Source: a virus. From it: DNA of 47,117 nucleotides. The DNA lies in the IMG/VR virus record IMGVR_UViG_3300032360_001291, positions 1-47,117 of that record; one strand, 5' to 3'. Under the pieces are notes generated by a model. That model did not search any database. It saw only the letters and a program-made list of their open reading frames with translations, and had not been told where the DNA came from. The translations under genes and the position numbers were made by a program. Shown one piece after another: positions 25,958-44,800 of the stretch (positions within the stretch are counted from its first letter, which is position 1; every line of letters begins with the position of its first letter).

Positions 25958-28171
25958 ATGGCGTGGAACTCCAGTAACAAGGCGATTAATCCAGACAGTA
26001 AGAAGTCTATCTCTATTGGTGCCCCTGTAGCGTATAACGCCGGACTTGTGGGCAAGCCGTACAACGATGGTTGGGATATTGAACGCGCCTATCGGGAGGG
26101 TTTGGCCAAGGTCGTTTGGGTCTATCGTGCTATCGACGCTATCGCTAGTAATCAAGCACGCCTGCCTGTTGCTTTTCTAAGAGACAACTCACCCTTTGGT
26201 GAGAGGGTTCCACGCGATGAGGAAAATGAAGATTTAGCCACGTTGTTGAATCAAAAGTCGAATGATGGTGAAAGCGCTTTCGTTTTTAGGTATCGGGTTT
26301 CTGCTCAGTTGTTGATGAGCACCCGTGGGGTGTTTATTGAGATTGTTCGGGCTAGGGGTGGTCACCCCGCTGCGCTACACCTGCTTCCTCCTCAGAGTAC
26401 GGCTCCGATTCCAGATGAGAAGAAGTTTGTGTCGGCGTTTGAGGTTGAACTTCCTAACGGGAAGAAGCAGAAATTAAATCCAAAGAATGTGATTTGGATT
26501 AGGCGTCCGCATCCGCTGGATCCCTATCTGTCGATGACCCCGATGGAGTCGGCTGGTGTAGCGATTGAAGTGGAGCATTTGGCCAAGTTGTATAACAGGA
26601 ACTTCCTGCTGAATGATGGTCGTCCGGGTGGGCTACTTGTGTTGAGAGGAATGATTGATGATGACGACAAACAAGAACTCCAAGCACGGTTTAGGGGAAA
26701 TCTTGCTCGGACTGGTGGAATCGGTGTTATCTCATCCGATGATGGAGCAGATTTCGTTGATACGGCGGCCAGTCCCAGAGAAGCGGCATATGACTCGCTG
26801 CGACAAATAACAAAAGAAGAGATTCTGGCTTCATTTGGTGTGCCGGAGAGCGTTATCGGCAATGCCGCTGGGCGGACCTTTTCAAACGCACAAGAGGAGG
26901 GCAGGGTTTTCTGGGGTGAGACTATGAGTCCGCACCTTGAGTTGCTTTCTCGTGGACTTGATGTACTGGATGAGAACTTCTACGTCACGTTTGATACTTC
27001 GTCTGTTCCTGTAATCGAATTGGCGAAGCAAGAGAAGGAGCGCCACTATCTACAGGAAGCCCAGATGGGGATGATCACCCCTAATGAGTATCGCGAAATT
27101 ACAGGCAGGGATAAGGTCGATGCTTATTTGGCAGATTCGATGTTGGCTAGTCCCAATCTTGCCGCAATCGGCAACACCGAAGAGGCGATGCCTAAAGAGG
27201 AGCCGATGCCACAGGGTATGCCGGGTATGCCGGGCATGCCGCCCGAGGGTATGCCGCCCGAGGGTATGCCGCCCGAAGGGGCTGGCGTTGTTGTTCCCCC
27301 GCCAGAACCGATACCTGAGCCAGAGATGGAGGGGGTGTTTCCAGAGGGGGAAGGGTTGGAAACTCGATCGTTTATGGGTGGCTTTGATGTCAAGCGATTT
27401 GAACTTAATGGACAGTGGGAGCATAAGGCATTTCAGGACATCGATCGATGGGAGGCAATTTTTAGTCGATCTTTGGAGCGCTACTTTGAACGGCAGGAGA
27501 GGGTTGTTACAGAAAAGGTTTCAGGGGCAAAAACAAAACGATCTATGTTAACTGGGGAATTGAAGATTGAACAGATTTTTGATGAGTCTATTTGGAATAA
27601 ACAATTGAGAGAAGATTTGAAGCCCGTGATTGAAGGGGCGATGATGGAGTCGTCCACAACGGCGTTACGGGAGTCTGATGAAAAGGTTGACATAGGGGAG
27701 GAGGAGATTCAGGAGTATGTCGAGTCTCAGTTGGTGCGGGTTGAACATGTGAACCAGACCACGAAGAAAGAACTGGCCGCAGCGATATTGTTGGCGACCC
27801 TGTTGTTGAGCGATGATGGAGACGCTGCTTCGGGAAAGGCCAAGGCGGCCATGTTGTCAACTGCGATTGGTGCTGTGTTCGCCGCTTTGCTGACGAAGCG
27901 GTTGAAAGACATATCTGAGGTTGAGAGCACCGGTGCTTATAATGCTGGTCTATTTTTTGGAGGTAGGCGTGCTGGAGCGACTACAAAAACGTGGATTACA
28001 CGCAAAGATCAGCAGGTTAGGGCTGCCCATGCTGCTTTGCAGGGGAAAAGTATCCCGATTGGGGAGGGTTTCAAGGCTGGAAAGCATGCTTTGAGGTTCC
28101 CCGGGGACCCTCTGGCGCCTCCAGAGTTGGTGATTAATTGTCGTTGTCTGTTGAAGTTCGGAGAGGTATAG
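25958..28171 (+). CDS. Portal protein fused to MuF-like head morphogenesis domain (737 aa)
   Basis: Residues 1-390 fit the HK97-type portal: VVWVYRAIDAIASNQARLPV, FVFRYRVSAQLLMSTRGV, NPKNVIWIRRPHPLDPY, GGLLVLRGMIDDDDK and ASFGVPESVIGN. Residues 415-460 are a Gly/Met/Pro linker with tandem GMPPE repeats. Residues 480-660 are helical. Residues 660-737 fit a MuF domain, with KTWITRKDQQVRAAHAALQG and the terminal PELVINCRCLLKF. Portal forms the DNA channel; MuF proteins enter or shape the head. Most phages encode the two separately. Confidence 0.9.
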   Translation: MAWNSSNKAINPDSKKSISIGAPVAYNAGLVGKPYNDGWDIERAYREGLAKVVWVYRAIDAIASNQARLPVAFLRDNSPFGERVPRDEENEDLATLLNQKSNDGESAFVFRYRVSAQLLMSTRGVFIEIVRARGGHPAALHLLPPQSTAPIPDEKKFVSAFEVELPNGKKQKLNPKNVIWIRRPHPLDPYLSMTPMESAGVAIEVEHLAKLYNRNFLLNDGRPGGLLVLRGMIDDDDKQELQARFRGNLARTGGIGVISSDDGADFVDTAASPREAAYDSLRQITKEEILASFGVPESVIGNAAGRTFSNAQEEGRVFWGETMSPHLELLSRGLDVLDENFYVTFDTSSVPVIELAKQEKERHYLQEAQMGMITPNEYREITGRDKVDAYLADSMLASPNLAAIGNTEEAMPKEEPMPQGMPGMPGMPPEGMPPEGMPPEGAGVVVPPPEPIPEPEMEGVFPEGEGLETRSFMGGFDVKRFELNGQWEHKAFQDIDRWEAIFSRSLERYFERQERVVTEKVSGAKTKRSMLTGELKIEQIFDESIWNKQLREDLKPVIEGAMMESSTTALRESDEKVDIGEEEIQEYVESQLVRVEHVNQTTKKELAAAILLATLLLSDDGDAASGKAKAAMLSTAIGAVFAALLTKRLKDISEVESTGAYNAGLFFGGRRAGATTKTWITRKDQQVRAAHAALQGKSIPIGEGFKAGKHALRFPGDPLAPPELVINCRCLLKFGEV
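27214..27280 (+). repeat. Tandem repeats encoding GMP and GMPPE units
   Basis: Three 9-base units (GGTATGCCG type) are followed by three nearly identical 15-base units (ATGCCGCCCGAGGGT) at 27236-27280. They code for a flexible linker in the portal-MuF fusion. Such in-frame repeats can vary in copy number by slippage. Confidence 0.8.
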
Positions 28172-28200: not shown

Positions 28201-28260
28201 TTGCGGCATGGGTTCTTATGGCAGTGTACACTTTTCGTAGTCTGAACCATAAGGGTGATT

Positions 28261-29556
28261 ATGCCAACTCTAACTTTTACGGAAGCATCTGAAATTCGCT
28301 TTAAGGCTCGTGCTGGTCAGGTCAATATTGATCAGGCAAAAGGTATCGTGGAGTGCTTTGTCGCTGCTATTGGCAATAAAGATTCTGTAGGCGACATTAT
28401 TATTCCCGGCGCTTTCGACGGTTCTCTCAAACGGCGCAAGCCACGGGTGGTATGGGGACACAACTGGAATGAGCCGATTGGCAAAGTTCTAGATATTTTC
28501 GAGGTTGCACCGAGGGATCGGCGGCTACCTCAGAAGATGTTCGATGCCGGTGTTGGTGGTCTTTTCGCCAAGGTTCAGTTCAACATGAACTCTGAACGCG
28601 GGAAAGAGGCTTTTGCGAATGTTGCCTTCTTTGGGGAGGAGCAGGAATGGAGCATCGGTTACAAGACGATCGATGCTGATTACGACCCCACCAATCAGGC
28701 GAATGTTCTAAAAGAGGTGGAACTGTACGAGGTTTCTCCAGTTCTACACGGAGCAAACCAGTTGACTGGGACTCTGTCCGTTAAAGACAACGATGATTGC
28801 GGCACCGATGGAGAACTTTGCGCTGTGAAAAACGTGTTCGACACGGAAGAGCCAAGTACTGAGGTAGTTTCTGATATTGCTGAGGTATTAGAGAAGGCAG
28901 TTAATACAGTTTTTGATGAGACTGTGGCATTGTGGGATTTTGATGATACCCGAGCGGTAGTTACTAAGAACGATCAAGCGTGGGTTATTAATTATAAATA
29001 CGATGAAGACAATTCTGAGTACTTGTTTTCAAAACCGAAGCAAGCCGTTTTGGAAACTTTTGTCCGCGTTCTAGACGACGAGACAAAGGGTGCAGGTTGT
29101 GAGTGTGGTGGAACTTGTGGCGGTTGTAGTGGAGAGAAGACTTTGGACGAAGACGCTGAAGTCAAGGGGGCTAAAAAGATCGATGCCCGGGGCGTTCAGA
29201 AACTGAATCAGGCTATCGACATCCTACGAAGCATCGTTAGTGAAGTTGCCCCTTCGGAGGGGCCGTTGGAGCAGAAGGAGCCCGTTGGGGAAAAGGTGCT
29301 CTTGTCTGGAGATTATGACGAGTTTTCGAAATCTCTTCCGTTTGATTGTGAGACGGAAGATGAAATGATCGATGTCATTGAGGCATTGGCGGGAGCCGGG
29401 GTTGCGGTGAAATTTCCAACCCCAGAGTTGTTTGCTGCTGGCATGAAGACCTTGGAGGTCATGTTGCCGCAGGATGAGCAGAAAAAGGACAGCGTTGTTC
29501 TTGCGATGAGCAAGGCGTTGTCAAATGTCAGTTTGCTAGTTGGCGAAACCCAGTAA
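28261..29556 (+). CDS. Prohead maturation protease (HK97/U35-like) with C-terminal extension (431 aa)
   Basis: The start is ATG 28261 with AAGGG upstream (a GTG two codons earlier is less likely). The protease domain has KDSVGDIIIPGAF, WGHNWNEPIG with the catalytic His, and QEWSIGYK with the catalytic Ser, then the EVELYEVSPVLHGAN strand typical of the family. The C-terminal 250 residues are not protease: a beta-rich domain, a Cys cluster (CECGGTCGGC) and a helical end. The extension may be a scaffold, as in HK97-type protease-scaffold fusions. It cleaves head proteins during capsid maturation. Confidence 0.9.
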   Translation: MPTLTFTEASEIRFKARAGQVNIDQAKGIVECFVAAIGNKDSVGDIIIPGAFDGSLKRRKPRVVWGHNWNEPIGKVLDIFEVAPRDRRLPQKMFDAGVGGLFAKVQFNMNSERGKEAFANVAFFGEEQEWSIGYKTIDADYDPTNQANVLKEVELYEVSPVLHGANQLTGTLSVKDNDDCGTDGELCAVKNVFDTEEPSTEVVSDIAEVLEKAVNTVFDETVALWDFDDTRAVVTKNDQAWVINYKYDEDNSEYLFSKPKQAVLETFVRVLDDETKGAGCECGGTCGGCSGEKTLDEDAEVKGAKKIDARGVQKLNQAIDILRSIVSEVAPSEGPLEQKEPVGEKVLLSGDYDEFSKSLPFDCETEDEMIDVIEALAGAGVAVKFPTPELFAAGMKTLEVMLPQDEQKKDSVVLAMSKALSNVSLLVGETQ

Positions 29557-29569
29557 CAAGGAGTTAACA

Positions 29570-31390
29570 ATGTCCGAAGAGGTTACAGACGAACAGTCTG
29601 AGGCTGCTGAAGAAAAGTCTCTAGAGGAGCAGATCGCCGTTCTGGAGGGTATTGCTACAGCCCTAGAGGAGGAGATCGAGGTCAAGGCCGACGAGACTGA
29701 GGCTGAGGAAGACTCCGAGGTTAAGGCTGAGGATGACACTGAAGAAAAAGGCTTTGGCGAGGCTGACCATTCTGAAGAGGAATGCAAGGACATGGAGAAA
29801 TGTCCGTGGCATGGTGTTGACGCCAAAGAGGGGGAAGAGCCTGACAGCGAGGAAAAGTCGGTTGAAGACGATGAGAAGGCTCATCCGGTAGCGACCGGTT
29901 ATCCATATGACGCTGTCGTATTACAGCCGGGCGACCCAGAGTTTGATGAGGAAGAGGACGAAAAGAACGAGATGGTTGTGCCCAAGAAGCGGCGCATTGT
30001 CGTCGTGGAAATGGACCCCTCACAGGTCACTGAAGACATGAAGGCTTATGAGGTAGAGGTTGACGAAGACGAGGAAGAGGAGCAGCCGTATCCCGAAGAG
30101 GAGGATGCGAAGCGTCACGAAAGGCGGCCACAGCCCGAAGAGGATGAAAGGGAGCGTCCTCGGATGGCGGCTCCCCCGCCCCCTCCGGCTCCTCCTGCGC
30201 CGCTTAACGAGGCACCGACACCCGACAGGTTGCCTCCTCCCCCTCCGGCTGCGTCAGTTCCGGCGGCTAATCCCCGCTTGGCGCGACTGCTGGCTATGGC
30301 GGCAGGGCGAAATGAGAATAGTCCTGAAGAGGAAGAGGAAGAGCAAAATGCCGCTCGCCTTCCGAGGGCTGTTCTTGTCAGGAAAGAAGATGACGTAGAA
30401 GAGGCTGACGCTGGGGTATCTCCAGAGAACACTGTGATAGATCCCGTGGGCTTGACCAAGCGTTTGAAGCGTTTGGGAATGACTTCGGCAGAAATCAAAT
30501 CGTTTGGAGGAGACGATTTCATGTGCGGCGTCGAACGGAAGGTGCGTTCTGGAGATGTCTGCAACTTCTGTCGTGGTGGATGTGCCAGCGAAAAGGGTCT
30601 TCCAAGTCTCCTAGAGGTAGAAGTTGCTGCCGAAGCGGAGTACAAGGGTGAGATCGTTGATTCGGGTTATGCGCCCAAGGACGACATCTTTGTTCTTGAC
30701 TTGAAGACTGATGATGGCTTCTTGGAGGCGTATTACGCTGGTAACGGTTCTCCGCTTGGCTGGATCAGGCTGGACGAGAACGCTGCGATCAAGTCTGCCG
30801 AAGAAGAGTCGGCAGAGGTTGTGTCCTTCGATCAGGCCGAACAGACGGCGCTGAAGCATATCAAGGGCAAGTCTCTTGGCGTAGACGTAGACATTTTCCA
30901 AGGCGAGGATGCTTACGTTGTTGAAATCGACGGCACTGATGGCAAGTCCTATGACGCCTATGTCGGGGTTACCGGACAGTTCCTTGGTTCGGACATGATT
31001 GAGTTCACTGAGGATGAAGAGGATGAGATCAAGGTGCTGCGGGTAGAGAAGCAGGCGCTTGAGTCAGAGTTGTATCTGAAGCGGAACTACGCCACTTCTG
31101 ATGTGACGCAGATGGCTCAAGACGGTCTCGCGTTGGAGGATGGTTCTTATCCCATCTTGACTGGTGAGGACTTGACTCACGCTGTCCGCATTAGTTATCG
31201 GGTTAAGACGGATGAACTCCGAACCCATATTGAACAGCGGGCATACGACTTGGACCGCATGGATCTACTCCCACCGGAGTGGGGTGAAGAAGAGAAATCT
31301 GCTTTAGAGGCGGACTTTGTTTCTTCGATGATGGAATTGGAAATGTTAGAGGCAGAACTTCCGACTGAAAGTAGTGATTCAGATGCGTAA
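29570..31390 (+). CDS. Acidic multi-domain protein with PepSY-like repeats (606 aa)
   Basis: The start is ATG 29570 with AAGGAG upstream; an earlier TTG overlaps the protease end. The first 200 residues are dominated by Glu/Asp. Then come a Pro/Ala linker (about 200-235), a Cys block (MCGVERKVRSGDVCNFCRGG, about 317-340) that may bind zinc, and two PepSY-like beta-alpha units (about 345-405 and 419-480: EQTALKHIKGK then DGKSYDAYVGVTGQFLG). The C-terminus is helical. The acidic N-terminus and position after the protease suggest a scaffold, capsid-associated or DNA-mimicking role. No major capsid motif is seen. Confidence 0.75.
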   Translation: MSEEVTDEQSEAAEEKSLEEQIAVLEGIATALEEEIEVKADETEAEEDSEVKAEDDTEEKGFGEADHSEEECKDMEKCPWHGVDAKEGEEPDSEEKSVEDDEKAHPVATGYPYDAVVLQPGDPEFDEEEDEKNEMVVPKKRRIVVVEMDPSQVTEDMKAYEVEVDEDEEEEQPYPEEEDAKRHERRPQPEEDERERPRMAAPPPPPAPPAPLNEAPTPDRLPPPPPAASVPAANPRLARLLAMAAGRNENSPEEEEEEQNAARLPRAVLVRKEDDVEEADAGVSPENTVIDPVGLTKRLKRLGMTSAEIKSFGGDDFMCGVERKVRSGDVCNFCRGGCASEKGLPSLLEVEVAAEAEYKGEIVDSGYAPKDDIFVLDLKTDDGFLEAYYAGNGSPLGWIRLDENAAIKSAEEESAEVVSFDQAEQTALKHIKGKSLGVDVDIFQGEDAYVVEIDGTDGKSYDAYVGVTGQFLGSDMIEFTEDEEDEIKVLRVEKQALESELYLKRNYATSDVTQMAQDGLALEDGSYPILTGEDLTHAVRISYRVKTDELRTHIEQRAYDLDRMDLLPPEWGEEEKSALEADFVSSMMELEMLEAELPTESSDSDA

Positions 31391-31546: not shown

Positions 31547-34500
31547 ATGGGTGAGAAACTCCTTGAGGTCAAGTTACCTCAAGACCTAATCGACATAATC
31601 CCACAGGAGCGGATTACTGGTGACATTCTTCGTGGCCATGGACCGCGCCGCGGGAATTTAGAGACCCTACTTAGATACTGGCGTCCCATTATGCGGAAGC
31701 CGGGTGGTTTTCGGCGGTGCATTGTGATTCTCGCCAATCACCCAGAGTTGTATCCGCTTCAACGTATCTGCGCGTGGTTGCATCACGAAACGACTGGCAA
31801 GTGGCCCAACGAGGGCAATCATCACGGCGTTCGTCGTGGTGGTGGCAGGGCCGGTCGTGTTCTTCGTCGTGCCATCCCCGGGAAAAGAAGGCGCCGCCGC
31901 GGGAAAAGTGATAGTGGTGTGGAGATAGCCAGTTGGAGAATCTATCGACGGCTGGGAGGGATGGCGACGCGTCCGATCGGCGGCGATCAGAATGCCGTTG
32001 AATATAAGGCTGCACGTTTTAAGCAGGGGTGCAGGTCTGTTCCCATGCCGGGTTCCTTCGAGTGGGACGAACACTATGTGAAAAGTCCTTTAGACACCTT
32101 GGACTTTAAGAGGCTCCCCAGAGGGCCGAGAGCCCACGGGCGTGGTGGACGGTTCCTGTCCAGCCTCGCTTCTTTCTTTACTCCGGGCGATATGGGCAAG
32201 TATCGCAGTCCGGGTCGTTCTTTGTTGTGGGGGGCGTTGACTCCCGGCGGTGGAGGACTCGGCGGCGGTTTGGGCGGCGGCGGTCTGGGCGGCGGCGGTC
32301 TGGGCGGTGGAGGCATTGGTGGTGGTTTGCCAACCATTGCAGCGGCTGAAGCCTTGCGGTGCCCGTCCGGTTATTTGAATGGTGGTCGATTTACTGATCC
32401 GAAGTTGACCAATTGTGGTGGTGTGATTTTTGATTCTCCCTCACAGGGTCCGGGTGCTGTTACTGAGGTTGACGTAGAAAAGATGACTCGTCGTTTTGAG
32501 TCTGCTGCCGCTGAAGACCTTCCAGACTTGGTTAGAGACATTGTTATCAACAAGCCACAAGGTGACCCTTTCGCCGTTATCCGTGAAGCGGCGATGCGAC
32601 CAAAGACTACGCCGAATAAAAAGCGGCGGGATTCATCAACGGAAGATGTCATTTCTCATTTGTCTGAGAATGAAAATGAGACTCGTCTTGTGCGTAGGGA
32701 TGGGGCAGTGTTGGAACCGACGCTTGGTCCAGAGGCGCTGGCGAGGATTGATCACGACAGCATAAAAGACGCTGTTTATGTCACCTCGAAAATCCCTGAA
32801 CAGGGGCAGATGACCGGAGACGAAGTGCGGCTTTTGACCAGAGGGGCAAAGGCGATTGTGTATGCGTTCCCAGAGGGCTCTGTCACTTTGTCGCGAAAGA
32901 AGGATCTGGATGTTGCTACGGCGTCAAGGATTAGAACTAGGTGGGGTGGACTAGTAAGGCATGCGAGTCTTTCGCACAACCCGGCTGAGGCGATGTTGCG
33001 ATTGGCGAAAGAGTTCGCTGACAGCCTGTCTGTCAGTACCGATTTCAGGCATATGCCGGGGGCGGATGAGCGGATAGTGGTGTACAACGTGTCGGGTGAG
33101 AGAAGGATCGTCCCACGTTGGATATTCCAAATGTTCTTATCGTTGCGTGCTCCTCGTCGTCCCTTGGGTGTGGTAAAGCCGTTCAGTTTGATTCCACCGG
33201 GTGAAGAAGAGGGTGGTCCGACCAAGTCCGAGTATTGGCGGCCAGAGCGTAGTCAGTTCGCTGTGTGGGGGATGGAACGAAAGGCGTTGTCGCTGCAATT
33301 GAACCCAGTTCCTTGGAAAGGGTCTGTCAATCTTTCCAGCGTATTGATTGGTGAGGAGCATCGAAAAGAATCTTTGATTGATTTCAAGGCGGCCAAATTT
33401 GGTAGGGCCTTGGAGGATCCCGAGATGATGGTCAAGGGGCTGTTGCGTGGGCGGATGCGTGGACGCCGCATCAGCAACCTTGCGCGTCGGATGCCAAAGG
33501 TGGTGCCGTATAACCCCGATGCCGTGGATGGCGAGGGTGACGGTCTGGTTCAGGATGGAACTATTTGGGAGCGTCCTGTTGGGACTCGTTTCGCTAATTT
33601 GAATAGTGGGGCTACAAGATTGTTGGTTGGTGCATATCTGGTAAACGCTCAAGGAGAGCGGAGTGAGTACTTGCCGGGTCAGCATCCCAAATCGCCAATA
33701 GGGCAGACGTATCAACCGAAGTTGACGGGGGCTCGGAGGATTGGGGCGAGGATTGCTGAACGTGGCCGTATCGGCGGGCGAGATGTCGTCCGCAAGCGAG
33801 ATGTCAGGCGTGGGGCGCAGGCAGATTTTACGGCTACTCAGGCACGAGCAGAGTTGCGGCGGCTGAATCTACAGCGTCGCATACGACGTATTCGAACGCA
33901 GCCTGAATATCGAGAGCGTCGGGCTGATCGTCTACAGGGACGAAGTGAACGGAACTTTGAGGTAGCAGAAGAAAGATTTGCGCAGGCTAGCGAGCGTGCC
34001 GCAGAAAGAAATGCCGAACGACAGGAGCGGCAGGAGCGGCAGGAAGTGGGGCAAGCGGCTCGCCGGGCGCGTCGTGAGATGAGTTTGAGGCATCGTGATG
34101 AAGGTGTAGCGGAGTCTCAGCGTCGAATGCCTGATGGTTCGCTTGCTTCCGCCCGTGAGCGTCGGCGACGGGATCGAAACCTTGATGAGCAAAACAGGCG
34201 GGAACGGGCCAATCTGGATCTTGAGAGTTCTAATGCGTTGCGGCGTCGGAGGGGGGCGAGGATTCTTGAAAGAGAAGAAAGGAGAGACGCTCGATCATTG
34301 GAAAGGTTGGATAGGCGTACCCCTGCTTTGGATTTGAGGTCGATGTCTGATGAAGATTTGATAGCGGATCGTAAGGCAGGATTCCGTCGTCATTATAACG
34401 ACCAGAAAAGACGAGGAACGTATAGCGGAATAGGAGACTTGCCTGACGATTTGAAGGCTGTTGAGAGAGAATTGAGAAGGCGGCGTTTGCCCGGTCCATG

Positions 34501-37500
34501 GAATAGAGAAGGGGTGGAAATCAATTCACGAGAAAGGATTCGACGGGTTGCGGTTGGACTATCGGATGCTGGGGAAAGGATTCGAGACCGTTACAGGTTG
34601 ATGGGTCGGAAGGACGTTAAGGATCAAGAGCGGGCTGTGGTCGCCGAGCAATTGGAATTCTCGGCAGGTGAGGTTGAACAGCAGTTGACATTGTTCAGTA
34701 TGCCGCATTCTTTGAGCGATGGATTTTCCACTCGTCGGGGCATAGTTGAATATACGGCGAGTCGTTTTGATGGAGAAACGGTTGCTGGGAGATTGGCGAA
34801 TGATGCTTATTCAGGGTTGGTGGACGCATCTGACGACAGTCAGGAAACGTTGGACGATTGGAAAAAGCAGATGAATCGGATTCGAATACGGATCCAGTCT
34901 GTTGACGGAGATGAGATAGTTCGAGTTGATGCTGACGATGATATTGACGACCTTATTCGTGCCACTGATTCTCCATTCGACGCAGATAAAAAGATGGTTG
35001 CCAAGTCGCGGGAAATGTTGATGGTTGGAGACTTGTGGATTGGAAGGGAGAGTCCTACGGAGATTGGAGAGGCGCAGTCTGTTGAAGAGTTGATGGAAGC
35101 GGTAGAAGACAATATTTCTTTTGTTGCCAAACCGGCAGAATTGTTGGCCCGACTAGAAATGATTATGGATGGGCTTGGTTCCGCTCGGGCGCATTTGCGG
35201 GGTATTGACACCGATGGTTTAATCGGTAAGCAGTTGCGTCGGTGGGCTAACAGTCCGGGCGGGAACATCGAAGACGACGGTTTGTTAACTGATCTTTTGA
35301 AGGCCCGCGTTTTACAGGCGACTACTGCCGAAGGTATTAGAAATGTAAGGAGTGCCCATGAAGCCGCTCTTAGGGTTGTAGGTGGGCTGAGAACAAAGAG
35401 TGTTGATGATGTGGATGGGCCTGAGAAGGCAAGGATTGAGATTAAGGATGCTCAGATTTTGGCGAGGGTTATTGCGCCGCAGGTGAGGGCACGTTTGGAG
35501 GTGGGTAAAGCAGTACGGGTTGAGAGTGGTAATGATAAATGGACTTTTACAGATTACGGCGTTGATATCGATGAGGTTTTCCGGCGTGTAGCCGATGGAA
35601 CGCCGTTGAGAGAAAGGGACGTAAAGGCTTTAGAAACGTTGGTTGATGATGCGTTCTTGTTGGGGAGGGTGATCCAGTCTACTCGTGATCCAGAATTAGA
35701 ATTTCTCATTGTTGGCAGGGACGTTGATCCTAGCGATGTTGTAGATCGTCCGAGAACTTCTCCTTTGAAGGGTGCGGATGCGCCTTCGAAAATATTGCGA
35801 GTGCGTAGAGATAAGGGAAAGATTGAAGTTCACTTTTCTGGAAAGATTCTTGCTCGCAGGTCAGGCGGAAAGACATTCTATGGCAGAGAACAAGTCGCAG
35901 GATTTGGATGGTCTGATGTCGGCAGCATTGAGCGAGCGGTGTCGTGGAGCAAGGGGCGGAGTGGAAACATTGTTGGAAAAATTGACAACATAGAACTGGA
36001 TCTAGATAGGCCCGGTTCGGGGACTCTTGGAAAGTCTCCCGTCAGGGTGAAAAACATGGGGCTATCCACTGTTGTGGGTAGTCATGCCGAGTTGTCGCTT
36101 TCTGCTACGGGAGTGGTTGAGTCAACTCTTTCTGGCAGAGATGAAGGACTCTTGGCTTTCGGCATGGCGGGTTTTAGAAATCTTGATGCCGAGGAACGAA
36201 TGATGGGAGCGATTGGAGAAACCGTCAGGTCTTATCGAATAGATGGTCCCTCTGATTCTCAGATTATTTTGAATGATAATATGGCAAATGCCTTAGAGGA
36301 ATTGTTGGATATTCATAATAGGCATGACGATGTTTCTTTCTTGCATGTTCATCAGGTTTTAAATGATTCGAGGTTTCTTCCAAAGGGTAGTCGGCGGCAT
36401 CCGTGGCGGAAAATAGTTGAACCTTTGCGGGATGAAGACCTTTTTCCGTATAGCGGGGTTGCCGAAGCAGATCGGTATGGGGATTGGTGGGTGGCAAACG
36501 CTCCCTTTAGGGACGGTTCCGTGCGTTTGGACGGCGAGGTCGGCGAATGGTTGGAAGAGGCTCGAAGTGGGCCACAGACATTCATTACCGATCTCACTGA
36601 GGGTTATCAAGTGGCTCGATGGAACCGTCACCATGGCGACAGGTCCCCTGATCCCGGTGATCCTAATCGTCATCGGTTCCATCGCAAGCAGCGGAGTCGC
36701 CGGAGAAGGCGTGCTCAGGATGGTGAGTTCCGACGCCGTGATGATGAGCCATCTTTGGAACAGATCCGTGAGAGGTGGCGAGCGAATGAACACATGATGA
36801 GTGATGAGCAATTGGAACTTTTGGCTGATGGGATGTTGAGTTTCAACTATGAGGACGACACGGAGCCTAGTCCTATGATTACTAATTATCTTCGAGACCT
36901 CGCTCGTGAAACTTTAGTTCGGCGCAACGAAGAAAGACATAATGTGACGCCTTGGGACGAGCCGGATCAGCGGGAGCAGGAGGAACTGCTTGGTCTTTCT
37001 GGTCCCAATTTTACGGCTAAGGATACGCAGTATGGGCGGGTTAATCCAGACGATCACCAGCCCGGGTGGTATCCAGAGGGTTTAAATCCGGATGCAGTTC
37101 ACAGGATGTCGTTAGATGATGCTGAAGTGTTGTTGTCTGAGATTGATGCGGCTATCCGGTATAACGATTTAGAGGACTTGGATAGTCCTCAGATAATTCT
37201 ACCAGATCGGAACGATCTTCGTCCATCGTTGCGAAAGTTGAATAACGCTTTTCTTGAAGATATCAAGATTGGGGTTGAAGGTAAAATAAGAAGGGGAGAA
37301 GAAGATACCCCACGGGGTGCGAGGCGGTATGCCTCTCGGATTAGTCCACCGATGAGGGAAAGTCGTAGCCGACAAGCACGGCAAAAGCAGATAGACGACA
37401 TGCCCGGTTTTCAGTTGTCTGAACTAAGCGACGAGATGGTGAAGGAACTCAAGAATGGGCGATGGGTACTTGAATACGATGGCCCCACTTCACGGCGTGC

Positions 37501-40500
37501 CCGGGGAGACTTGGAGTTCCGGTTTAATGAAGATGATTTTGAAGTAGTTGGCTACTCATCCGGTGAAGTATTGCTACGGGCTAAGGGAGGCGGTGTTCTC
37601 AGTGGATACAAGGCTGGAGATTACATAAGGATTCCAATTCACACGAAGGATGATTCTCGTGAGGCGCGGTTGGCCAAGAAGAGTACGGACTTGCCGTTCC
37701 CGACACATTCGCCGGTTTGGACCCAGTGGCGTCCGACGGGGAGGTCCCGACCCATTGACACGGCGTGGTGGAATTTCACGCAGAACTTTTTGGATAGAGA
37801 ATGGCCAAAGGCCCAAAAGGAGAGGCGGAGGGACAAGGGGAAGAAGGCTCCGCAAGGTCGTGACTATTCTGGAGAAAGTTTAGAAGAATGGAATAATACG
37901 AATTTATCTGATGGTTCTTTTATTGGATCTGATAGTTCGGATGCTGATCTTCGTACAGCGAATTTGGCTGGGTCGGATTTATCAAAGTCGAAATTTGTTG
38001 GAGCCGACTTGGGTCAATCGTATATCGAGCATGCAGATTTCACCGAATCAGATTTATCTGGAGTGGAAATGATTGAAGCGATGGCTTCGCACACAAACTT
38101 CAGAAAAGCGATCTTGGAGGGGGGGAAGTTCAGTAGAACAGATTTTCGAGGCGCAAGATTCTTTGGCGCAAAAGCCAAGGGAGCAGACTTCGAAGGTGCC
38201 AATTTGCATACCGCAGATATGAGCGTAATGGATCTTCGGGATGCAAATCTCAGAGGTGCTGTTTTGCAAGGTGCTGATCTTGATGGTGCTGATTTGACTG
38301 GCGCTGATTTGACTGGTGCTGACCTTCGGGGTGTTGATTTGAGTAGGGCGATTTTGACGGATGCCATTTTGACGGATGCGAATGGCTGGGCGGCAGACTG
38401 GCCGGAGGGCTTCGATCCTGTGGCGGCCGGGGTTGATCTTGACGCTCCGTTGGGCCGGTGGCCGGGCGGCGGTCCTGTCGATCCCGGCGATTTGGATGCT
38501 GACGATCCAGAGATTCTTGGGGAAGCGGATCGACTTCTGGACGAGTTGGGTGAAAACTTGAATCCAGATTTAGTTGAAGCGATTGATCCTGAGAAGAAGA
38601 AGCAATATTTCGCAAAGGCTATATCAGATGTGGAGGCCATGATCGCCGCGGCATTAAGAGATCCAGATTGGGACCCGGGATCCGAAGCGGCCAGAGTAGG
38701 CGAAGAGACGTTGAGTGCATATACGACAACTTTGGGTATTGCAGAACGCATGTCTGATGCTGAACTTAAAGCATATATTCAACAACTATCTGTAATTGAC
38801 GAAGTTGACATGGGTGTTGATCCGCGTCTTATCGGGCTGATGCCTCATCTTATGTCTCCGCCTCGGGACGGCTTAGAGCCGAGGCAGGCTGGGCGGTTGA
38901 GGGGATATCAGCATGCCCTAATGATCAATTGGGAGATGAAGCGTGAATCCGCTCGGCGGAGCATGAGGCGGGCAGCCTCGCGTCTGTCTCAAGAAGAATT
39001 GCGTGCGAGACTAGAGAGGCTAGATGACATGGAGCCGGGGGCGGTGATTACGGACATGCCCGAGTTTGCTCTTGGAGATGATGCCTTGGTTTCATTTGGG
39101 GTAGACGAGGAATATCTTTTCGGAGCCCGCTTTCAGGGATTATTTGAAGTTTACAACGTCAGAAACAATCAGGATCCTCTAGGGGAAACCCAATTTAGGC
39201 CGGGCAATAATCCTTACAGTATTAACGCAGAGGGGGACATAGTTTTCAACATGGACATGAATGTTGAAGGGGCCATGGATGCAGGGGCCGCTGGGATGGT
39301 GAGGGAGGTAGAGGAGCATCTCGCTGGGGCAGTACATCCCGACGACCAGTCCGCCAGCAACGTTCCGGGCGGCGGAACCGGCCTCGCTTCTCAAAATGAA
39401 AAGGTTCGAAGACTGTCAGAGATAGATGCGGAAATAGATCGTCTAGTTGAGGGACATCAATACGAAGGAGGGAGAGGCGCTGAAGACATAAGCGGCGCAG
39501 CGCGCAGAGAGTCACTGCGTGAACAGTTTGGAGACATGGAGCCGGAAGACGTAGAGAGGTTAGGAAGGCTGTTGGATGAACGGGTAGCAATCAACAATTC
39601 GTTCCCGAAAGATTATCAGCCGCCTCGTGACTGGAATCAGGCGGCCAGAGTAGGCAGCCCCATGCATGAGGTGGATCTGGAGCGACCGGTGACAGAGATG
39701 ACTTGGCAGGAACTTGACAACATCGACGGTGCGTATAGGGCGCTGGATGCAGCGAGAGACGAGACTGATATTCGCTATCAACTGTCGGAAGAAGTACCGG
39801 ACTGGACCCCGGAAGAGGCTGCATATCGCGAGGAGGTGAAAGCGGAGTTGGCCAAACGCAAGGCACATCCCGATTTCGACTACGGCACCGGTCCCAACGG
39901 TTCGCGCACGGAAGAAGATGAACGGAGGGATGATGAAGCCGAGCATGAAAAGGAAGTGCGGAAAGCGCGGGGACGGTGGAACCATAGAGAGAATCGGAAG
40001 AATGAATACAGGGCAATGTCCGATGAAGAATTGGAAAAAGAATACGAAAAGATTCTTGCCGATAATGATGAAGCGGTGGCGGCTGGAGATTACGAGTACG
40101 GCGATAGATACGACGTTCGGCCTTCAATGGCTGTGTGGAAGGACGGCGTTCGCATGGAGGATACAACAGGGGGGATGACTGGTTACCACGCGGACGCCTT
40201 GACAGACCTTGAGACAGTGATGGAAGAACGCTCTTCCGGTACGAAGCCGTTTGTTTTGCGTACCGCTACCCCTAGAGAGAAGGACGCAAAGTCGAAGGAG
40301 AACACTGCTGAAATACGTCGCCTGATTGGACAGCCGGATTCCAAATACCCCCTTATTGAAGACATGCATCACACTCATCGTGATACTGGCGAACGCTTCG
40401 GCGGCGTGTCCATTGAGGACGAAATGACGGTGCGGCGGTTAGAGGACGAGAACGAAGAGATCAACCTGTCGTTCCCGCATGACTACGACGCTGATCTTGA

Positions 40501-41569
40501 TCCTGATCAGTTGAGGGATGCTATAGGACAATTGGCAGGTGATGGGGGTGCCCAAGTCGTGGATCCCAGTGAGGTTCCGAGTGATTTTGGGGTCCAGCCT
40601 TCTTCTGCCACAGAAGATCCTGAGTGGACGATGTCGATTTACGATCAGGCGCTTCGACGGTATCAAACTATGAATGATGAAGACTTGGCCATTGAAAGGG
40701 GTGGCCTTTGGCGGAAAACAATGAGGTGGCGGGAAGCGGGACATGAGCCGAGGATGGCTGATCAGTTGAAACTGTCGGCGGCAACAAATGAAATAGAGAG
40801 CCGTGGTACGCCCATGGCGGATGAGGTCGAAGGTCAGTTGCCCATTTGGTCATTGGAGTCTCCCGAAGACGGCGAGTCTTATGACGCAGCGCGTAGGCAG
40901 GTGAGCGACATCCAGCAAATGGAAAATCTCAAGAATCTACATCACAACGCGAAAAGGAGCGGCGATAGGGCAAGGATGAAGGAGTTGGAAGATGAAATGA
41001 GTGTACTTGCCGCGAAGCAGACTATTTCTTTAGGTAAGCGCGGTTTTGATAAGGGTGGTGTCAGGCCGGATGCAAAAATCAAAGGACGGAGAAAGTGGGC
41101 AGAGAGGGAGGTGGAGCGTCAGGGCGCGCCACGGAGTGAGGTGGAAGGATTTCTCAGTGGCTGGGAGTACGCAGAATCAACTATTCGAAGCGGTGACGGA
41201 CGCAGCACTTCGAAGCGGTTGGAAAATGGGCGGTTCACTGAGGACGACATCATAGAAATCCACGGCTATGTCGATGAGAAAGGGAGAAGGGAATACCGGA
41301 CGACTCCTGTCACGTTCGCCAATGGGACCGAGGCGCTGTCAGCAGAGTTGATCCCACGGGCCATGAAAAATCTGATACAAGCCCACAAGGATGGGGACTT
41401 GACTCCTGAAGAGTTTGTGGAGGAGTTTCTCAAGATTCACCCGTTTGAGGATGGAAACGGTCGTACTGCTTCGATTCTGCTGAATGCTTTGGAGTGGCAG
41501 CAGAAGGGTTCTGCTGGTCCAGATCGCATGTTTTTCTCAATGCTCCCTAAGTTTTTTGAAGGTGAATAG
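31547..41569 (+). CDS. Giant multi-domain phage protein with pentapeptide repeats and C-terminal Fic domain (3340 aa)
   Basis: The ATG follows GAGGAAG. Order: a basic N-terminus (1-130); a Gly-rich stretch (240-265); a CPSGYLNGGRFTD...CGGVIF block; a region with LIDFKAAKF; a DGEGDGLVQDGTIWERPVG motif (661-679); Arg-rich coiled coils (750-1000); repeated MSDEEL-type helical units; a pentapeptide-repeat domain (2110-2285); and a Fic domain (about 3190-3340) with HPFEDGNGRT at 3298-3307. It follows portal, protease and the acidic protein. Size and mosaic domains fit polyvalent proteins carried in the virion and injected. Fic proteins transfer AMP or other nucleotides to targets; the pentapeptide part could mimic DNA. 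It might also be processed by the protease. Confidence 0.85.
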   Translation: MGEKLLEVKLPQDLIDIIPQERITGDILRGHGPRRGNLETLLRYWRPIMRKPGGFRRCIVILANHPELYPLQRICAWLHHETTGKWPNEGNHHGVRRGGGRAGRVLRRAIPGKRRRRRGKSDSGVEIASWRIYRRLGGMATRPIGGDQNAVEYKAARFKQGCRSVPMPGSFEWDEHYVKSPLDTLDFKRLPRGPRAHGRGGRFLSSLASFFTPGDMGKYRSPGRSLLWGALTPGGGGLGGGLGGGGLGGGGLGGGGIGGGLPTIAAAEALRCPSGYLNGGRFTDPKLTNCGGVIFDSPSQGPGAVTEVDVEKMTRRFESAAAEDLPDLVRDIVINKPQGDPFAVIREAAMRPKTTPNKKRRDSSTEDVISHLSENENETRLVRRDGAVLEPTLGPEALARIDHDSIKDAVYVTSKIPEQGQMTGDEVRLLTRGAKAIVYAFPEGSVTLSRKKDLDVATASRIRTRWGGLVRHASLSHNPAEAMLRLAKEFADSLSVSTDFRHMPGADERIVVYNVSGERRIVPRWIFQMFLSLRAPRRPLGVVKPFSLIPPGEEEGGPTKSEYWRPERSQFAVWGMERKALSLQLNPVPWKGSVNLSSVLIGEEHRKESLIDFKAAKFGRALEDPEMMVKGLLRGRMRGRRISNLARRMPKVVPYNPDAVDGEGDGLVQDGTIWERPVGTRFANLNSGATRLLVGAYLVNAQGERSEYLPGQHPKSPIGQTYQPKLTGARRIGARIAERGRIGGRDVVRKRDVRRGAQADFTATQARAELRRLNLQRRIRRIRTQPEYRERRADRLQGRSERNFEVAEERFAQASERAAERNAERQERQERQEVGQAARRARREMSLRHRDEGVAESQRRMPDGSLASARERRRRDRNLDEQNRRERANLDLESSNALRRRRGARILEREERRDARSLERLDRRTPALDLRSMSDEDLIADRKAGFRRHYNDQKRRGTYSGIGDLPDDLKAVERELRRRRLPGPWNREGVEINSRERIRRVAVGLSDAGERIRDRYRLMGRKDVKDQERAVVAEQLEFSAGEVEQQLTLFSMPHSLSDGFSTRRGIVEYTASRFDGETVAGRLANDAYSGLVDASDDSQETLDDWKKQMNRIRIRIQSVDGDEIVRVDADDDIDDLIRATDSPFDADKKMVAKSREMLMVGDLWIGRESPTEIGEAQSVEELMEAVEDNISFVAKPAELLARLEMIMDGLGSARAHLRGIDTDGLIGKQLRRWANSPGGNIEDDGLLTDLLKARVLQATTAEGIRNVRSAHEAALRVVGGLRTKSVDDVDGPEKARIEIKDAQILARVIAPQVRARLEVGKAVRVESGNDKWTFTDYGVDIDEVFRRVADGTPLRERDVKALETLVDDAFLLGRVIQSTRDPELEFLIVGRDVDPSDVVDRPRTSPLKGADAPSKILRVRRDKGKIEVHFSGKILARRSGGKTFYGREQVAGFGWSDVGSIERAVSWSKGRSGNIVGKIDNIELDLDRPGSGTLGKSPVRVKNMGLSTVVGSHAELSLSATGVVESTLSGRDEGLLAFGMAGFRNLDAEERMMGAIGETVRSYRIDGPSDSQIILNDNMANALEELLDIHNRHDDVSFLHVHQVLNDSRFLPKGSRRHPWRKIVEPLRDEDLFPYSGVAEADRYGDWWVANAPFRDGSVRLDGEVGEWLEEARSGPQTFITDLTEGYQVARWNRHHGDRSPDPGDPNRHRFHRKQRSRRRRRAQDGEFRRRDDEPSLEQIRERWRANEHMMSDEQLELLADGMLSFNYEDDTEPSPMITNYLRDLARETLVRRNEERHNVTPWDEPDQREQEELLGLSGPNFTAKDTQYGRVNPDDHQPGWYPEGLNPDAVHRMSLDDAEVLLSEIDAAIRYNDLEDLDSPQIILPDRNDLRPSLRKLNNAFLEDIKIGVEGKIRRGEEDTPRGARRYASRISPPMRESRSRQARQKQIDDMPGFQLSELSDEMVKELKNGRWVLEYDGPTSRRARGDLEFRFNEDDFEVVGYSSGEVLLRAKGGGVLSGYKAGDYIRIPIHTKDDSREARLAKKSTDLPFPTHSPVWTQWRPTGRSRPIDTAWWNFTQNFLDREWPKAQKERRRDKGKKAPQGRDYSGESLEEWNNTNLSDGSFIGSDSSDADLRTANLAGSDLSKSKFVGADLGQSYIEHADFTESDLSGVEMIEAMASHTNFRKAILEGGKFSRTDFRGARFFGAKAKGADFEGANLHTADMSVMDLRDANLRGAVLQGADLDGADLTGADLTGADLRGVDLSRAILTDAILTDANGWAADWPEGFDPVAAGVDLDAPLGRWPGGGPVDPGDLDADDPEILGEADRLLDELGENLNPDLVEAIDPEKKKQYFAKAISDVEAMIAAALRDPDWDPGSEAARVGEETLSAYTTTLGIAERMSDAELKAYIQQLSVIDEVDMGVDPRLIGLMPHLMSPPRDGLEPRQAGRLRGYQHALMINWEMKRESARRSMRRAASRLSQEELRARLERLDDMEPGAVITDMPEFALGDDALVSFGVDEEYLFGARFQGLFEVYNVRNNQDPLGETQFRPGNNPYSINAEGDIVFNMDMNVEGAMDAGAAGMVREVEEHLAGAVHPDDQSASNVPGGGTGLASQNEKVRRLSEIDAEIDRLVEGHQYEGGRGAEDISGAARRESLREQFGDMEPEDVERLGRLLDERVAINNSFPKDYQPPRDWNQAARVGSPMHEVDLERPVTEMTWQELDNIDGAYRALDAARDETDIRYQLSEEVPDWTPEEAAYREEVKAELAKRKAHPDFDYGTGPNGSRTEEDERRDDEAEHEKEVRKARGRWNHRENRKNEYRAMSDEELEKEYEKILADNDEAVAAGDYEYGDRYDVRPSMAVWKDGVRMEDTTGGMTGYHADALTDLETVMEERSSGTKPFVLRTATPREKDAKSKENTAEIRRLIGQPDSKYPLIEDMHHTHRDTGERFGGVSIEDEMTVRRLEDENEEINLSFPHDYDADLDPDQLRDAIGQLAGDGGAQVVDPSEVPSDFGVQPSSATEDPEWTMSIYDQALRRYQTMNDEDLAIERGGLWRKTMRWREAGHEPRMADQLKLSAATNEIESRGTPMADEVEGQLPIWSLESPEDGESYDAARRQVSDIQQMENLKNLHHNAKRSGDRARMKELEDEMSVLAAKQTISLGKRGFDKGGVRPDAKIKGRRKWAEREVERQGAPRSEVEGFLSGWEYAESTIRSGDGRSTSKRLENGRFTEDDIIEIHGYVDEKGRREYRTTPVTFANGTEALSAELIPRAMKNLIQAHKDGDLTPEEFVEEFLKIHPFEDGNGRTASILLNALEWQQKGSAGPDRMFFSMLPKFFEGE
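32257..32330 (+). repeat. Gly-rich tandem repeat in the giant gene
   Basis: Units of 12 bases (GGCGGCGGTCTG type) code for repeated GGGL/GGGI motifs in a flexible linker at about residues 240-265 of the giant protein. Confidence 0.75.
37880..38390 (+). repeat. Pentapeptide-repeat domain coding region
   Basis: The segment encodes repeated A(D/N)LxG-type pentapeptides, such as ADLDGADLTGADL, with about 30 units. This folds as a right-handed quadrilateral beta helix. Flanking residues are low in repeats. The unit is 15 bases, and codons vary between units, so this is a conserved domain, not recent slippage. Confidence 0.9.
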
Positions 41570-41571
41570 TA

Positions 41572-41628
41572 GTGTTTAAGAGTCTGTTGGCATATTGGAG
41601 ATGGTTTAAAAAGTCATGGAACGCGTAA
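41572..41628 (+). CDS. Possible Trp/Lys-rich micropeptide (18 aa)
   Basis: GTG at 41572 follows GAAGGTG by eight bases and encodes VFKSLLAYWRWFKKSWNA, an amphipathic cationic helix with three Trp, ending at TAA 41626-41628. Its end overlaps the ATG of the next gene (41616). The start is weak and the frame is short, so it may be noise, but its composition is like membrane-active peptides. Confidence 0.3.
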   Translation: MFKSLLAYWRWFKKSWNA

Positions 41629-41888
41629 GCGAAATATCTCTCATCAAAATGAAAGATTATATTCAGAATCGTAATAATGCTACGCGTTTGGGAATGGTTG
41701 AATTGGTGGCCCAGTATGTGATGCATGATCTTGAAGATGTCAGCGAAGAAGAGAAGGAGGAGGCTTTGGTTTTAACGAAGTACCACTTATCCACAGATCG
41801 TGGTATTGAAGAAATCAAAGCCTTGTATCCGTCGGCGGTTGCTTGGGCTGAAGAAGGACTGTTCCAGAAGGATTTGGAGACTAAGTAG
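41616..41888 (+). CDS. Small acidic helical protein between the two giant genes (90 aa)
   Basis: It is helical and acidic (HDLEDVSEEEKEEALVLTKYHL), with a hydrophobic N-terminal helix (LGMVELVAQYVMHDL). It ends two bases before the next giant gene. ATG 41616 has an AAAAAG upstream; ATG 41649 is an alternative. Its place between two giant genes suggests a chaperone or inhibitor of one of them, for example an antitoxin-like partner of the Fic domain. Its sequence shows no Fic-inhibitory (S/T)xxxE(G/N) motif, so this is speculation. Confidence 0.62.
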   Translation: MERVSEISLIKMKDYIQNRNNATRLGMVELVAQYVMHDLEDVSEEEKEEALVLTKYHLSTDRGIEEIKALYPSAVAWAEEGLFQKDLETK

Positions 41889-41890
41889 TC

Positions 41891-44800
41891 GTGGAAACTT
41901 TGTCCGAGTCTCGTCTGAACCTTGTTGAGTTCAAGGCGCGCGCTTATATGTCTCAGGAGCAGAAGGGCGCGTTTCGCATGCTGCGCAGGCTTGTGGGGCT
42001 GGGTGGAAGAGGGAAGAAGAAGCGTATCCGGGGTCGTAGGGCGCGCGCGGCTCACTATGGACGGCGTCTCGGCGGTGGGGGACGAGGGCCGGGTAGGCCA
42101 TATACGGGTGGTCGGAAGCCGAGAAGTGATGTTCCCTATGAGCGTCATTCACGCGACGCCGATGGTGATGGGTTGCTTCAGGAGGGGACCATTTGGGAGC
42201 GTCCTGTTGGTTCCGGGGTTCACTCTCAAGAAGGGCCGGAGTTGGAGGCGGGCGCTACTGGTCCTGATAGTGGTTTTACCACCATTCGTAATGCTGCCGG
42301 GGACCCGACTGGGTATGACCCAAAGAAAAATCCAAAGTCGCCGCTGTATCAGAGCACTCGGGAAGTTAGAGATGGGCAACGGCGTGTGGCTCGGGGGCGG
42401 GCACAGGCGGAGCAGGCGGCGAGGGATCGCACGGTCAAGCCGCGTGAGCAAGAGGTAGAACAATCCGAGGTGAAATTAAGGAGAAGGATTTCGATTGTTC
42501 TCCAAGATGACAACATCGACAGGATGTTGGACGCTGAGGATCGGGTGCAGGCTGGTCGGTCGGATCAAGCACTTGGTTTTTGGATGTCTTTCGCCGAGGG
42601 GTTTACTGGCGTAAGGATGCAGTTAGGTAAGAGGTCGGATAAGGATAGTAAGAAGGGTTCTGGTTCTGCTGCTACTGAAGAATTGAAGCGTCTATCTGAG
42701 GGTGCAATCGTCGCGTTGGGGGAGCAGCGTCATATCGCTGATCGTGCGGGCCGTGAGATTACTGATGAGGATCGGCGTCGGCAGAACCATCAGGACGATC
42801 AGATTCTTCCGCATGACGTTAATCGTGCCGAGCATTACAAGAAGATGAAAGAAGACGCTGCGTATCGCAGGGCGTTCATCTTGTCGATGATACACCACGA
42901 TGAGAACGAGGACAATTTTGTATACCCGCCGGGTTATAAGAGGCCGGATGGGCGGACTAGGGCTGGTGCGAGAGAGCCTAAGGCCGACCGCAAATTCCGG
43001 ATCAAGCCTCACACTTTTGAAGATGACGAACTTGATGATGCTATTGAGATGATGGCAAGTAGGAGGGGCACGGATGAAGAGCAAGAGGGCGACAAGCAGT
43101 ATCACATTGATTTGAAGAAAGAGAAAGCCCATCGGGTAAAGATGTCCACTGCGGAGAGGAGTGCGGCGGCCACTGAGAGGCGGAAGGAAAGGGACCGGAT
43201 AAGGGATGAGAAGAAAAAGACTGTCGATGAAATAATCGCGCGGAAAAAGGAGTTGCAGAAGGCGTGGGATGACGGTCCTGAGAAGATGTCCCATGAGGAT
43301 CTAAAAGAGCATTTGGCAGGTTTGAGTCCTGATGACTTGAGGAAGATATCAAAAGAATATGGGACGAAGTTAACAGGTCATAAAGATGACAAGATAGATG
43401 CCATTATTGGGAAAGTACGCCCAGCGTATGGCCCCTCTGTGCCGGAAATCGATGACTTGGATCCTGAAGATCCTGAATATGCAAAGCGTCTAAGGGAAGA
43501 TCCAAAGGCTCTTAGGAAGTGGGCAAAGGTATATCTGATTGAAGGTCGTGGCACGTTAACGGATCCGGGCAATGAAGATAAATACGATCCAGAGGAAGCG
43601 ATACGTCGAATCATTGCTAAAAGGACAGGGAAGGAACCTCCGAAGACGTTTGCCGATGCGGCCATGGAAGGTGCTGTGGCTGATTTGGAGGCCGAGGCGG
43701 AGGCAGTGAGCAAGTTGGATCCGGCGACTGAAATGACTCGTGAAGAGTTGTTGGCTACGTTCCCCCGGAAAGCCCCCCTGCAAGAGATTTTGAAGGGCAT
43801 GGGGATGGAGAAGGTTCCGGGTGGTTGGAGTCGGGACACATTGGTTGACAAGATTATTGAGCGGCGTGGGCCGGAAACGGTTGAGCAGGTTTTGTATCGA
43901 GACGTTGGGTCGATGTCCCGAGAAGAGATGAAAAAAGAACTGGAGAAATTGCTAGCCAAGGGGGATCCTGCTGACGCTGATCGCATTACGGCTTTGAGTA
44001 CGGCGTTGGGGCGGGTTGAGGAGAAAAAGCCTAAGCAGAAGAAGCCCGTTGCTGGACCTTCGAAGAAACCGATTCCGCCGCCGCCGGACAAGCCGCCGCC
44101 AGACCCAGAAAGTGTTGTATTCCGTACCGAGAAGTTCTGGGGAGAAAACAATCTCATTACTCCCGAACCTTCAGGGTCACAGTGGGTGAGGAATGCTGAT
44201 GGTTCGTACAGTCGGTTTAGCACTCGTCCGGAGGGCGAGGGTACTGGCGATGTGTTTGTTGAGCCGTTGTCGGGGTGGCATAAACCTCGGAAGTATGTGT
44301 TTGTAACTGAAGAGGTGGGTGCGGCCGCGAAGGCGAGTGGTGTTCCGCCGAAGGATGAGGATGTCAGCCCGACTCCTGAAGTTGGGTTGCATGCGTTGTC
44401 GATGGGTGCAACGCCGGATGAAACTCATTTGAGTGATCGGATTGTTGAGGTGCCTGATGTGGGCGTTGAGGAGGAGCCGTGGGATGGCGCTGGGGTGTTG
44501 CGTCCTCGTGCTGGTGGAGGAGTAGAACCACCGGAAGGTTGGTCGGACACAGATTTTTCGACTTGGTCTGATCTGAGGTTGGACTATGAGATTAGACATG
44601 GGCTTGAGTTCGCTGGTACCGAGTATGCGGATCCGATAAAAACTTCTGCCATGGTGAGGGAGTGGGATAGTCGCTCGGCCAACGCCGAGCGGGATTCGTT
44701 GGTGGGTGAAGACAGTGGTGTCCGACGAGATGCGTTGCTTGACGCACAGCAGGAGATGGCGGATCACGTTGAGGCGAACTGGGAAAGGGTACTTGAGATA

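Follow-up and report, generated by a model that had tools for sequence, protein, structure and literature searches.

A shared peptide motif in a giant Fic-bearing protein encoded beside phage head genes

Results

A single 10-kb reading frame follows the portal and protease genes

The window (the whole stretch of DNA that was analysed) is IMG/VR record IMGVR_UViG_3300032360_001291, 47117 bases in length and classed as virus; every feature of the window located below lies on the plus strand. Positions 31547-41569 encode a giant protein of 3340 aa with homologues in a dozen IMG/VR contigs. The frame starts at an ATG with GAGGAA upstream and is uninterrupted by stops; at 51% GC an open frame of this length has a chance probability of ~5e-68, and comparison with the closest relative indicates purifying selection (Ka/Ks 0.07-0.58). 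The gene sits among head and packaging genes, with those for terminase, portal-MuF and protease adjacent. The portal protein, with its C-terminal MuF-like domain (25958-28171; PF04860, E=1.1e-46), matches PHROG 2662 across nearly its full length (E=2.6e-95), the MuF part itself giving a weak match just below cut-off (PF04233, 4.7e-6). It is followed by an S78-type prohead maturation protease of 433 aa (28255-29556; PF04586, E=5.4e-13; PHROG 80, head maturation protease, 5.9e-32) and by a 616-aa protein (29540-31390), acidic in composition and putatively scaffold-like, whose residues ~503-589 resemble the C-termini of actinophage capsid proteases (blastp matches to those of ChisanaKitsune and GMA6, ~1.7e-7). 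The initial annotation had described one 10-kb frame directly after portal, protease and acidic protein, and these assignments bear it out.

Two further frames lie downstream. A small protein of 90 aa (41616-41888) separates the first giant gene from a second giant ORF (41891-47117), which encodes at least 1742 aa, has no Pfam match, runs off the contig end, and is hidden in a listing of closed ORFs. The 90-aa ORF is conserved at 51-62% identity in at least 10 related contigs that have no Fic domain (tblastn). The order portal-MuF, protease, acidic protein, first giant, small protein, second giant is kept in related contigs.

A conserved N-terminal part precedes a fast-evolving remainder

Scanning viral contigs with the portal yielded 19 related loci. 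Where these extend into the giant gene, alignment holds over the N-terminal ~750-830 residues (54-94%), beyond which the sequences diverge. The closest relative (IMGVR_UViG_3300031701_000017, hereafter the sister) has a complete giant protein of 3245 aa, 77-81% identical over residues 1-3098. Selection is distributed unevenly along this pair: residues 1-640 are 94% identical with a Ka/Ks of 0.07, rising to 0.22 at residues 641-720, 0.26 in the pentapeptide part and 0.38-0.58 elsewhere.

The slowly evolving part (31547-33466, residues 1-640; mean column identity 70% in a 12-sequence alignment) is presumed to be the head-association, or anchor, part. Structure prediction for the N-terminal part is confident at residues ~355-550 only, and the fold predicted there finds no match in the PDB; its matches come from the viral library only, where it resembles predicted viral proteins whose annotation is prohead protease or minor capsid protein. 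Immediately after the conserved part lies a motif (33491-33604, residues 649-686, VVPYNPDAVDGEGDGLVQDGTIWERPVGTRF; profile A3, E=1.1e-22), referred to hereafter as the tag, and then a low-complexity region (33644-34546, residues ~700-1000) with 24-26% Arg per 100 residues, the long Arg-rich part already recognized in the initial annotation. The pentapeptide repeats placed mid-protein by the same reading are confirmed at 37916-38398 (residues ~2124-2284; PF00805, E=1.3e-33, over the Pfam curated cut-off), with further profile matches to PF13599 (4.5e-11) and PHROG 15350; the sister keeps this region. Several domains are thus joined in one polypeptide—pentapeptide repeats, Fic and several regions without assignment—and a Pfam search of the 3340 aa found no match to the polyvalent hallmarks ArdC-N and MPTase-PolyVal.

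The Fic domain belongs to a C-terminal module absent from the closest relative

The C-terminal module (40841-41566, residues 3099-3340) contains a Fic core (41234-41488, residues 3230-3314; PF02661, E=3.6e-9; score 37.8 bits, cut-off 24), again where it had been reported, at the end of the protein. The catalytic HPFx[DE]GNGR is present as HPFEDGNGR at residues 3298-3306, then TAS; the second Arg of the Fic motif (GNGRxxR) is therefore missing, with Ser in its place (GNGRTAS). In AMP transferases this second Arg serves ATP binding, so that ATP as donor, and AMP transfer, are not to be assumed here. The domain resembles Fic/Doc proteins (PF02661) such as FICD in that the HPFxDGNGR core and the upstream flap segment align (phmmer matches to FICD structures at ~1e-4), and differs from them in this Ser and in being part of a 3340-aa phage protein. 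The inhibitory [ST]xxxE[GN] helix of class II Fic proteins lies ~129 residues before the His in FICD. Here the single [ST]xxxE[GN] match is SKRLEN, which precedes the His by 72 residues instead of the usual distance, at a chance expectation of 0.42 matches. The single-sequence structure model of the Fic part is poor (mean pLDDT 53.7) and gave no fold match.

In the sister, the protein stops at the position that matches residue 3098 and has no Fic; the small ORF and second giant of the sister are collinear with those of the window, and nucleotide homology resumes at ~41643. Homologous sequence flanks the gap on both sides, so that the Fic module behaves as a single block of ~0.7 kb, present in one phage and absent from the other, and a chimeric assembly is unlikely. 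Judged from these alignments, the Fic module is a unit, gained here or lost as such by the sister, and its presence or absence in close relatives shows putative effectors being exchanged at the C-terminus. Among homologues at greater distance, one shows a PI3/4-kinase-like match close to the C-terminus, slightly below cut-off. For the C-terminal region of the giant protein, searches of IMG/VR returned the sister contig only, and plasmids gave Fic-level matches. Among the phages examined, the Fic module is confined to this one; elsewhere, Fic turned up in 1 of 50 records with the motif, where an unrelated frame of 179 aa encodes it, and our literature search found no paper on phage-packaged Fic.

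A motif common to both giant ORFs recurs in otherwise dissimilar phage proteins

The tag recurs in the second giant ORF (42122-42235, DVPYERHSRDADGDGLLQEGTIWERPVGS; profile A3, E=2.5e-19). Its consensus spans ~30 residues, Y-[DN]-P-x-A-x-D-x-D-x-D-G-[IL]-V-Q-E-G-T-x-W-E-R-P-x-G-T. Searching for QEGTxWERP alone as a DNA pattern gave 113 matching stretches in viral contigs, against a roughly estimated chance expectation of the order of one (2^-36 per position, with the collection size estimated rather than measured); the three Asp, which lie outside the searched string, are invariant in 89 of 89 distinct seeds. With a slightly stricter pattern, 257 Gb of bacterial and archaeal genomes yielded only 9 stretches, on contigs from five assemblies. 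Carriers of the motif amount to 160 ORFs in 66 clusters, mostly from uncultured phages. When dissimilar carriers were aligned blind (sets of 28 and 36), the motif emerged as the main conserved stretch, with a consensus VDxxGxxxxYxP downstream. The QEGTxWERPxGT extension is conserved as strongly as the Asp loop. We found no paper containing the motif strings.

Counts over whole records reach 7, 6, 5 and 5, and certain proteins have the motif in two or three copies. The carriers of the seven-motif record range from 539 to 4433 aa, and the motif is the only stretch common to all of them, some pairs sharing further domains when compared all against all. Two groups of motif-bearing contigs (L137-L139 and L142; L141, L144 and L145) were assigned to MAGs of Phycisphaerae and Gammaproteobacteria; as these contigs are likely phage, the bins say little about the host.

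Carriers include effector-like giants, protease fusions and short proteins

Pfam domains among the carriers comprise Zeta_toxin, PI3_PI4_kinase, RNase_T, DUF3626, ADPrib_exo_Tox and KTSC. In a 2741-aa carrier from another phage, the motif occurs together with Zeta toxin, pentapeptide repeats, ArdC-N and MPTase-PolyVal, the last two being hallmark domains of the polyvalent class (PMC5512222). Several records have a tagged giant frame whose own N-terminus is the S78 protease (frames of 701 to 4433 aa), as in L149:271-13569 (4433 aa) and L030:3208-12147 (2980 aa), and a capsid gene is located among tagged genes. We regard the protease fusion, as seen in these frames, as the strongest indication that the giants may belong to the prohead. 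The C-terminus of the 4433-aa fusion additionally has several helix-turn-helix matches nearby.

Other carriers fit less readily. Short DUF7936 proteins have a low-complexity linker and the motif at the extreme C-terminus (L025:4456-5148, L081:8064-8618, L127:9470-10081 and others), in gene neighbourhoods unlike head clusters, so that the motif may be something other than a head signal. The largest records include tagged genes separated from the protease by tens of kilobases, and an S78 match is absent in half of the 50 records searched, many records being fragments. One DUF7936 carrier (L121) adjoins a 2OG-Fe(II) oxygenase gene.

Cultured actinophages have a variant with the same spacing

Against cultured phages, the gene cluster had no nucleotide match, neither half of the giant protein had a tblastn match, and the motif as tblastn query gave chance matches only, in a search limited by low-complexity filtering. 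The nearest cultured relatives of the portal infect Gordonia, Brevibacterium and Streptomyces; only these portal relatives suggest that the hosts may be actinobacterial.

In four actinophage loci (L003, L004, L154 and L155) we observe a related sequence, VRDxx[YF]WGxPxGTPI. It occurs N-terminally, at residues 20-46, both in the ADP-ribosyltransferases of GMA6, ChisanaKitsune and Stormageddon and in the protein beside the ADP-ribosyltransferase of GMA6 and ChisanaKitsune; in Mycobacterium phage Argie it lies at residue 888 of gp8, a protease-MuF fusion. These phages resemble the present case in placing effectors such as ADP-ribosyltransferase beside portal and protease genes, or fused to MuF and protease, and in the W-x-x-P-x-G-T-x-I spacing, which is identical in both motifs and extends to the protease-MuF fusion; they differ in that their motif has no DxDxDG...QEGT part. 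The background for W-x-x-P-x-G-T-x-[ILVF] is 7 in 334,422 residues of non-carrier frames, and the identical spacing suggests that the two motifs may have a shared origin. Streptomyces phage Gilgamesh gp48 (L002:18679-32553; 4624 aa, function unassigned, encoded shortly after a portal-MuF fusion gene) was considered as a counterpart and rejected, being a giant without a visible tag.

Discussion

A probable head cargo protein with a proposed tag and exchangeable C-terminal modules

Phages package and eject proteins whose action precedes all gene expression, and to our knowledge the selection of such cargo is poorly known outside T4 and phiKZ-like phages. The gene described here, in our judgement, probably encodes a polyvalent-type head cargo protein in which exchangeable effectors follow a conserved N-terminal anchor and a shared tag. 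The slowly evolving ~640 N-terminal residues would join the giant protein to the assembling prohead, and the motif at residues 649-686 would be a position-independent peptide tag, placed on many otherwise unrelated giant proteins and probably acting as a docking or loading signal in head assembly, alongside the S78 protease and the acidic scaffold-like protein. What follows the tag would be fast-evolving cargo: the Arg-rich region, a pentapeptide-repeat rod and the C-terminal Fic module. During infection this cargo would accompany the DNA into the cell, its C-terminal modules acting in the next host, where the Fic domain, if active, may modify a host protein through nucleotide or phosphate transfer. 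The sequences themselves establish the reading frame and its domains, the gene order, the modular nature of the motif, the protease fusions, the gradient of selection and the presence or absence of Fic between close relatives, whereas packaging, ejection, the role of the tag, and the activity and target of the Fic domain are steps that we infer; the recurrence of the motif in these carriers suggests that the tag may mark proteins for loading into the virus particle.

Several known systems bear on this proposal. Polyvalent proteins (Iyer et al, 2017; PMC5512222) share with the giant protein a very large multidomain architecture, a portal/head gene context and effector domains, and a relative with the same motif has ArdC-N and MPTase-PolyVal, hallmarks that the 3340-aa protein itself does not have. 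The initial annotation had proposed a virion-associated polyvalent-type protein; that part stands on gene order, on the motif shared with protease fusions and on the tagged Zeta/ArdC-N/MPTase-PolyVal relative, but Fic as a fixed part of it does not, the nearest relative being without Fic. Nor does Fic belong to the published list of polyvalent domains, as had been assumed: the terms Fic and pentapeptide are absent from the 2017 survey (PMC5512222). Injection and a takeover or anti-defence role, also put forward in the initial annotation, may apply to the giant protein. The shared motif, the second giant ORF and the conservation of the N-terminal ~640 residues are observations that go beyond that annotation. 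We conclude that the giant protein is probably a variant of polyvalent head cargo, and that the real interest lies in the shared motif.

Effectors packaged via a short signal alongside a prohead protease would share their logic with T4 Alt and the T4 internal proteins that carry a capsid-targeting sequence. The T4 signal is N-terminal and cleaved, whereas the present motif is unrelated to it in sequence and may take any position, being internal or C-terminal in many carriers. More tentatively, and with somewhat less than even confidence, we put forward a generalization: one ~30-residue peptide, DxDxDG[IL]VQEGTxWERPxGT, might be a general address label by which phages of several lineages load giant effectors into the capsid, shortened to WxxPxGTxI in actinophages, with effectors evolving by the attachment of domains to a fixed label. 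If the motif marks giant effector-like proteins, cargo could be found from sequence alone, including proteins that have no recognisable domain; the motif makes the question of packaging directly testable, possibly in the cultured actinophages with a related motif.

Alternative explanations for the motif and the Fic module

The alternative that we set aside with most reserve, while still thinking it rather unlikely, is that the motif is a structural element only: a Ca2+-binding loop (DxDxDG), lengthened by an extension, which helps large proteins to fold or to keep an extended form and has spread by recombination, with no part in targeting. D-x-D-x-D-G does resemble the loops of EF-hand, dockerin and thrombospondin type 3 proteins, and the variable, sometimes repeated position of the motif would suit such a role. 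However, conservation of QEGTxWERPxGT to the same degree as the Asp loop goes beyond the needs of a generic metal site, the motif is nearly confined to phage contigs (the 113 viral against 9 cellular stretches given above), and in the actinophage variant the W-x-x-P-x-G-T core persists although the Asp loop is missing.

The proteases of T4 and phiKZ-like phages remove head propeptides, and the motif could by analogy be a processing site, at which the prohead protease cuts within or next to the motif (for example at W-E-R-P) and frees the cargo from the N-terminal assembly part. Its location between protease domain and cargo in the protease fusions, and at the border of the conserved N-terminal part in the 3340-aa protein, is as such a site would have it; yet in the DUF7936 carriers only a few residues follow the motif, such that a cut would release nothing, some proteins have two or three copies, and the Glu-Arg pair is absent from the cultured actinophage variant. 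We consider processing unlikely.

We attach similarly low probability to a third alternative, in which the giant protein would be a head or neck structure (scaffold, internal body or minor capsid protein) and its Fic domain a degenerate passenger without enzymatic role. The head-gene position of the gene is compatible with this, as is the modelled likeness of residues 355-550 to viral proteins annotated as prohead protease or minor capsid protein; the Ser in place of the last Fic-motif Arg, and a sister that lives without the module, would fit a passenger. Against it, the catalytic His and HPFxDGNGR are intact in a domain that scores over the Pfam cut-off, and relatives have unrelated enzyme or toxin domains in comparable places. 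A reading of the C-terminal Fic as toxin and the small downstream ORF as antitoxin, prompted by the position of the 90-aa ORF (41616-41888) directly after the Fic-bearing gene, is highly improbable and was rejected, for that ORF is kept in more than ten Fic-less relatives and in the Fic-less sister, and by eye contains no [ST]xxxE[GN] motif.

A further similarity to another phage lies within the N-terminal part of the giant protein: residues ~50-93 (31694-31825) form a near-invariant segment, RRCIVILANHPELYPLQRICAWLHHETTGKWPNEGNHH, and a similar segment, RCVRHLRKHV...LCNVYHTSAVGKPP, occurs in Cantare gp12, encoded just upstream of the Cantare protease.
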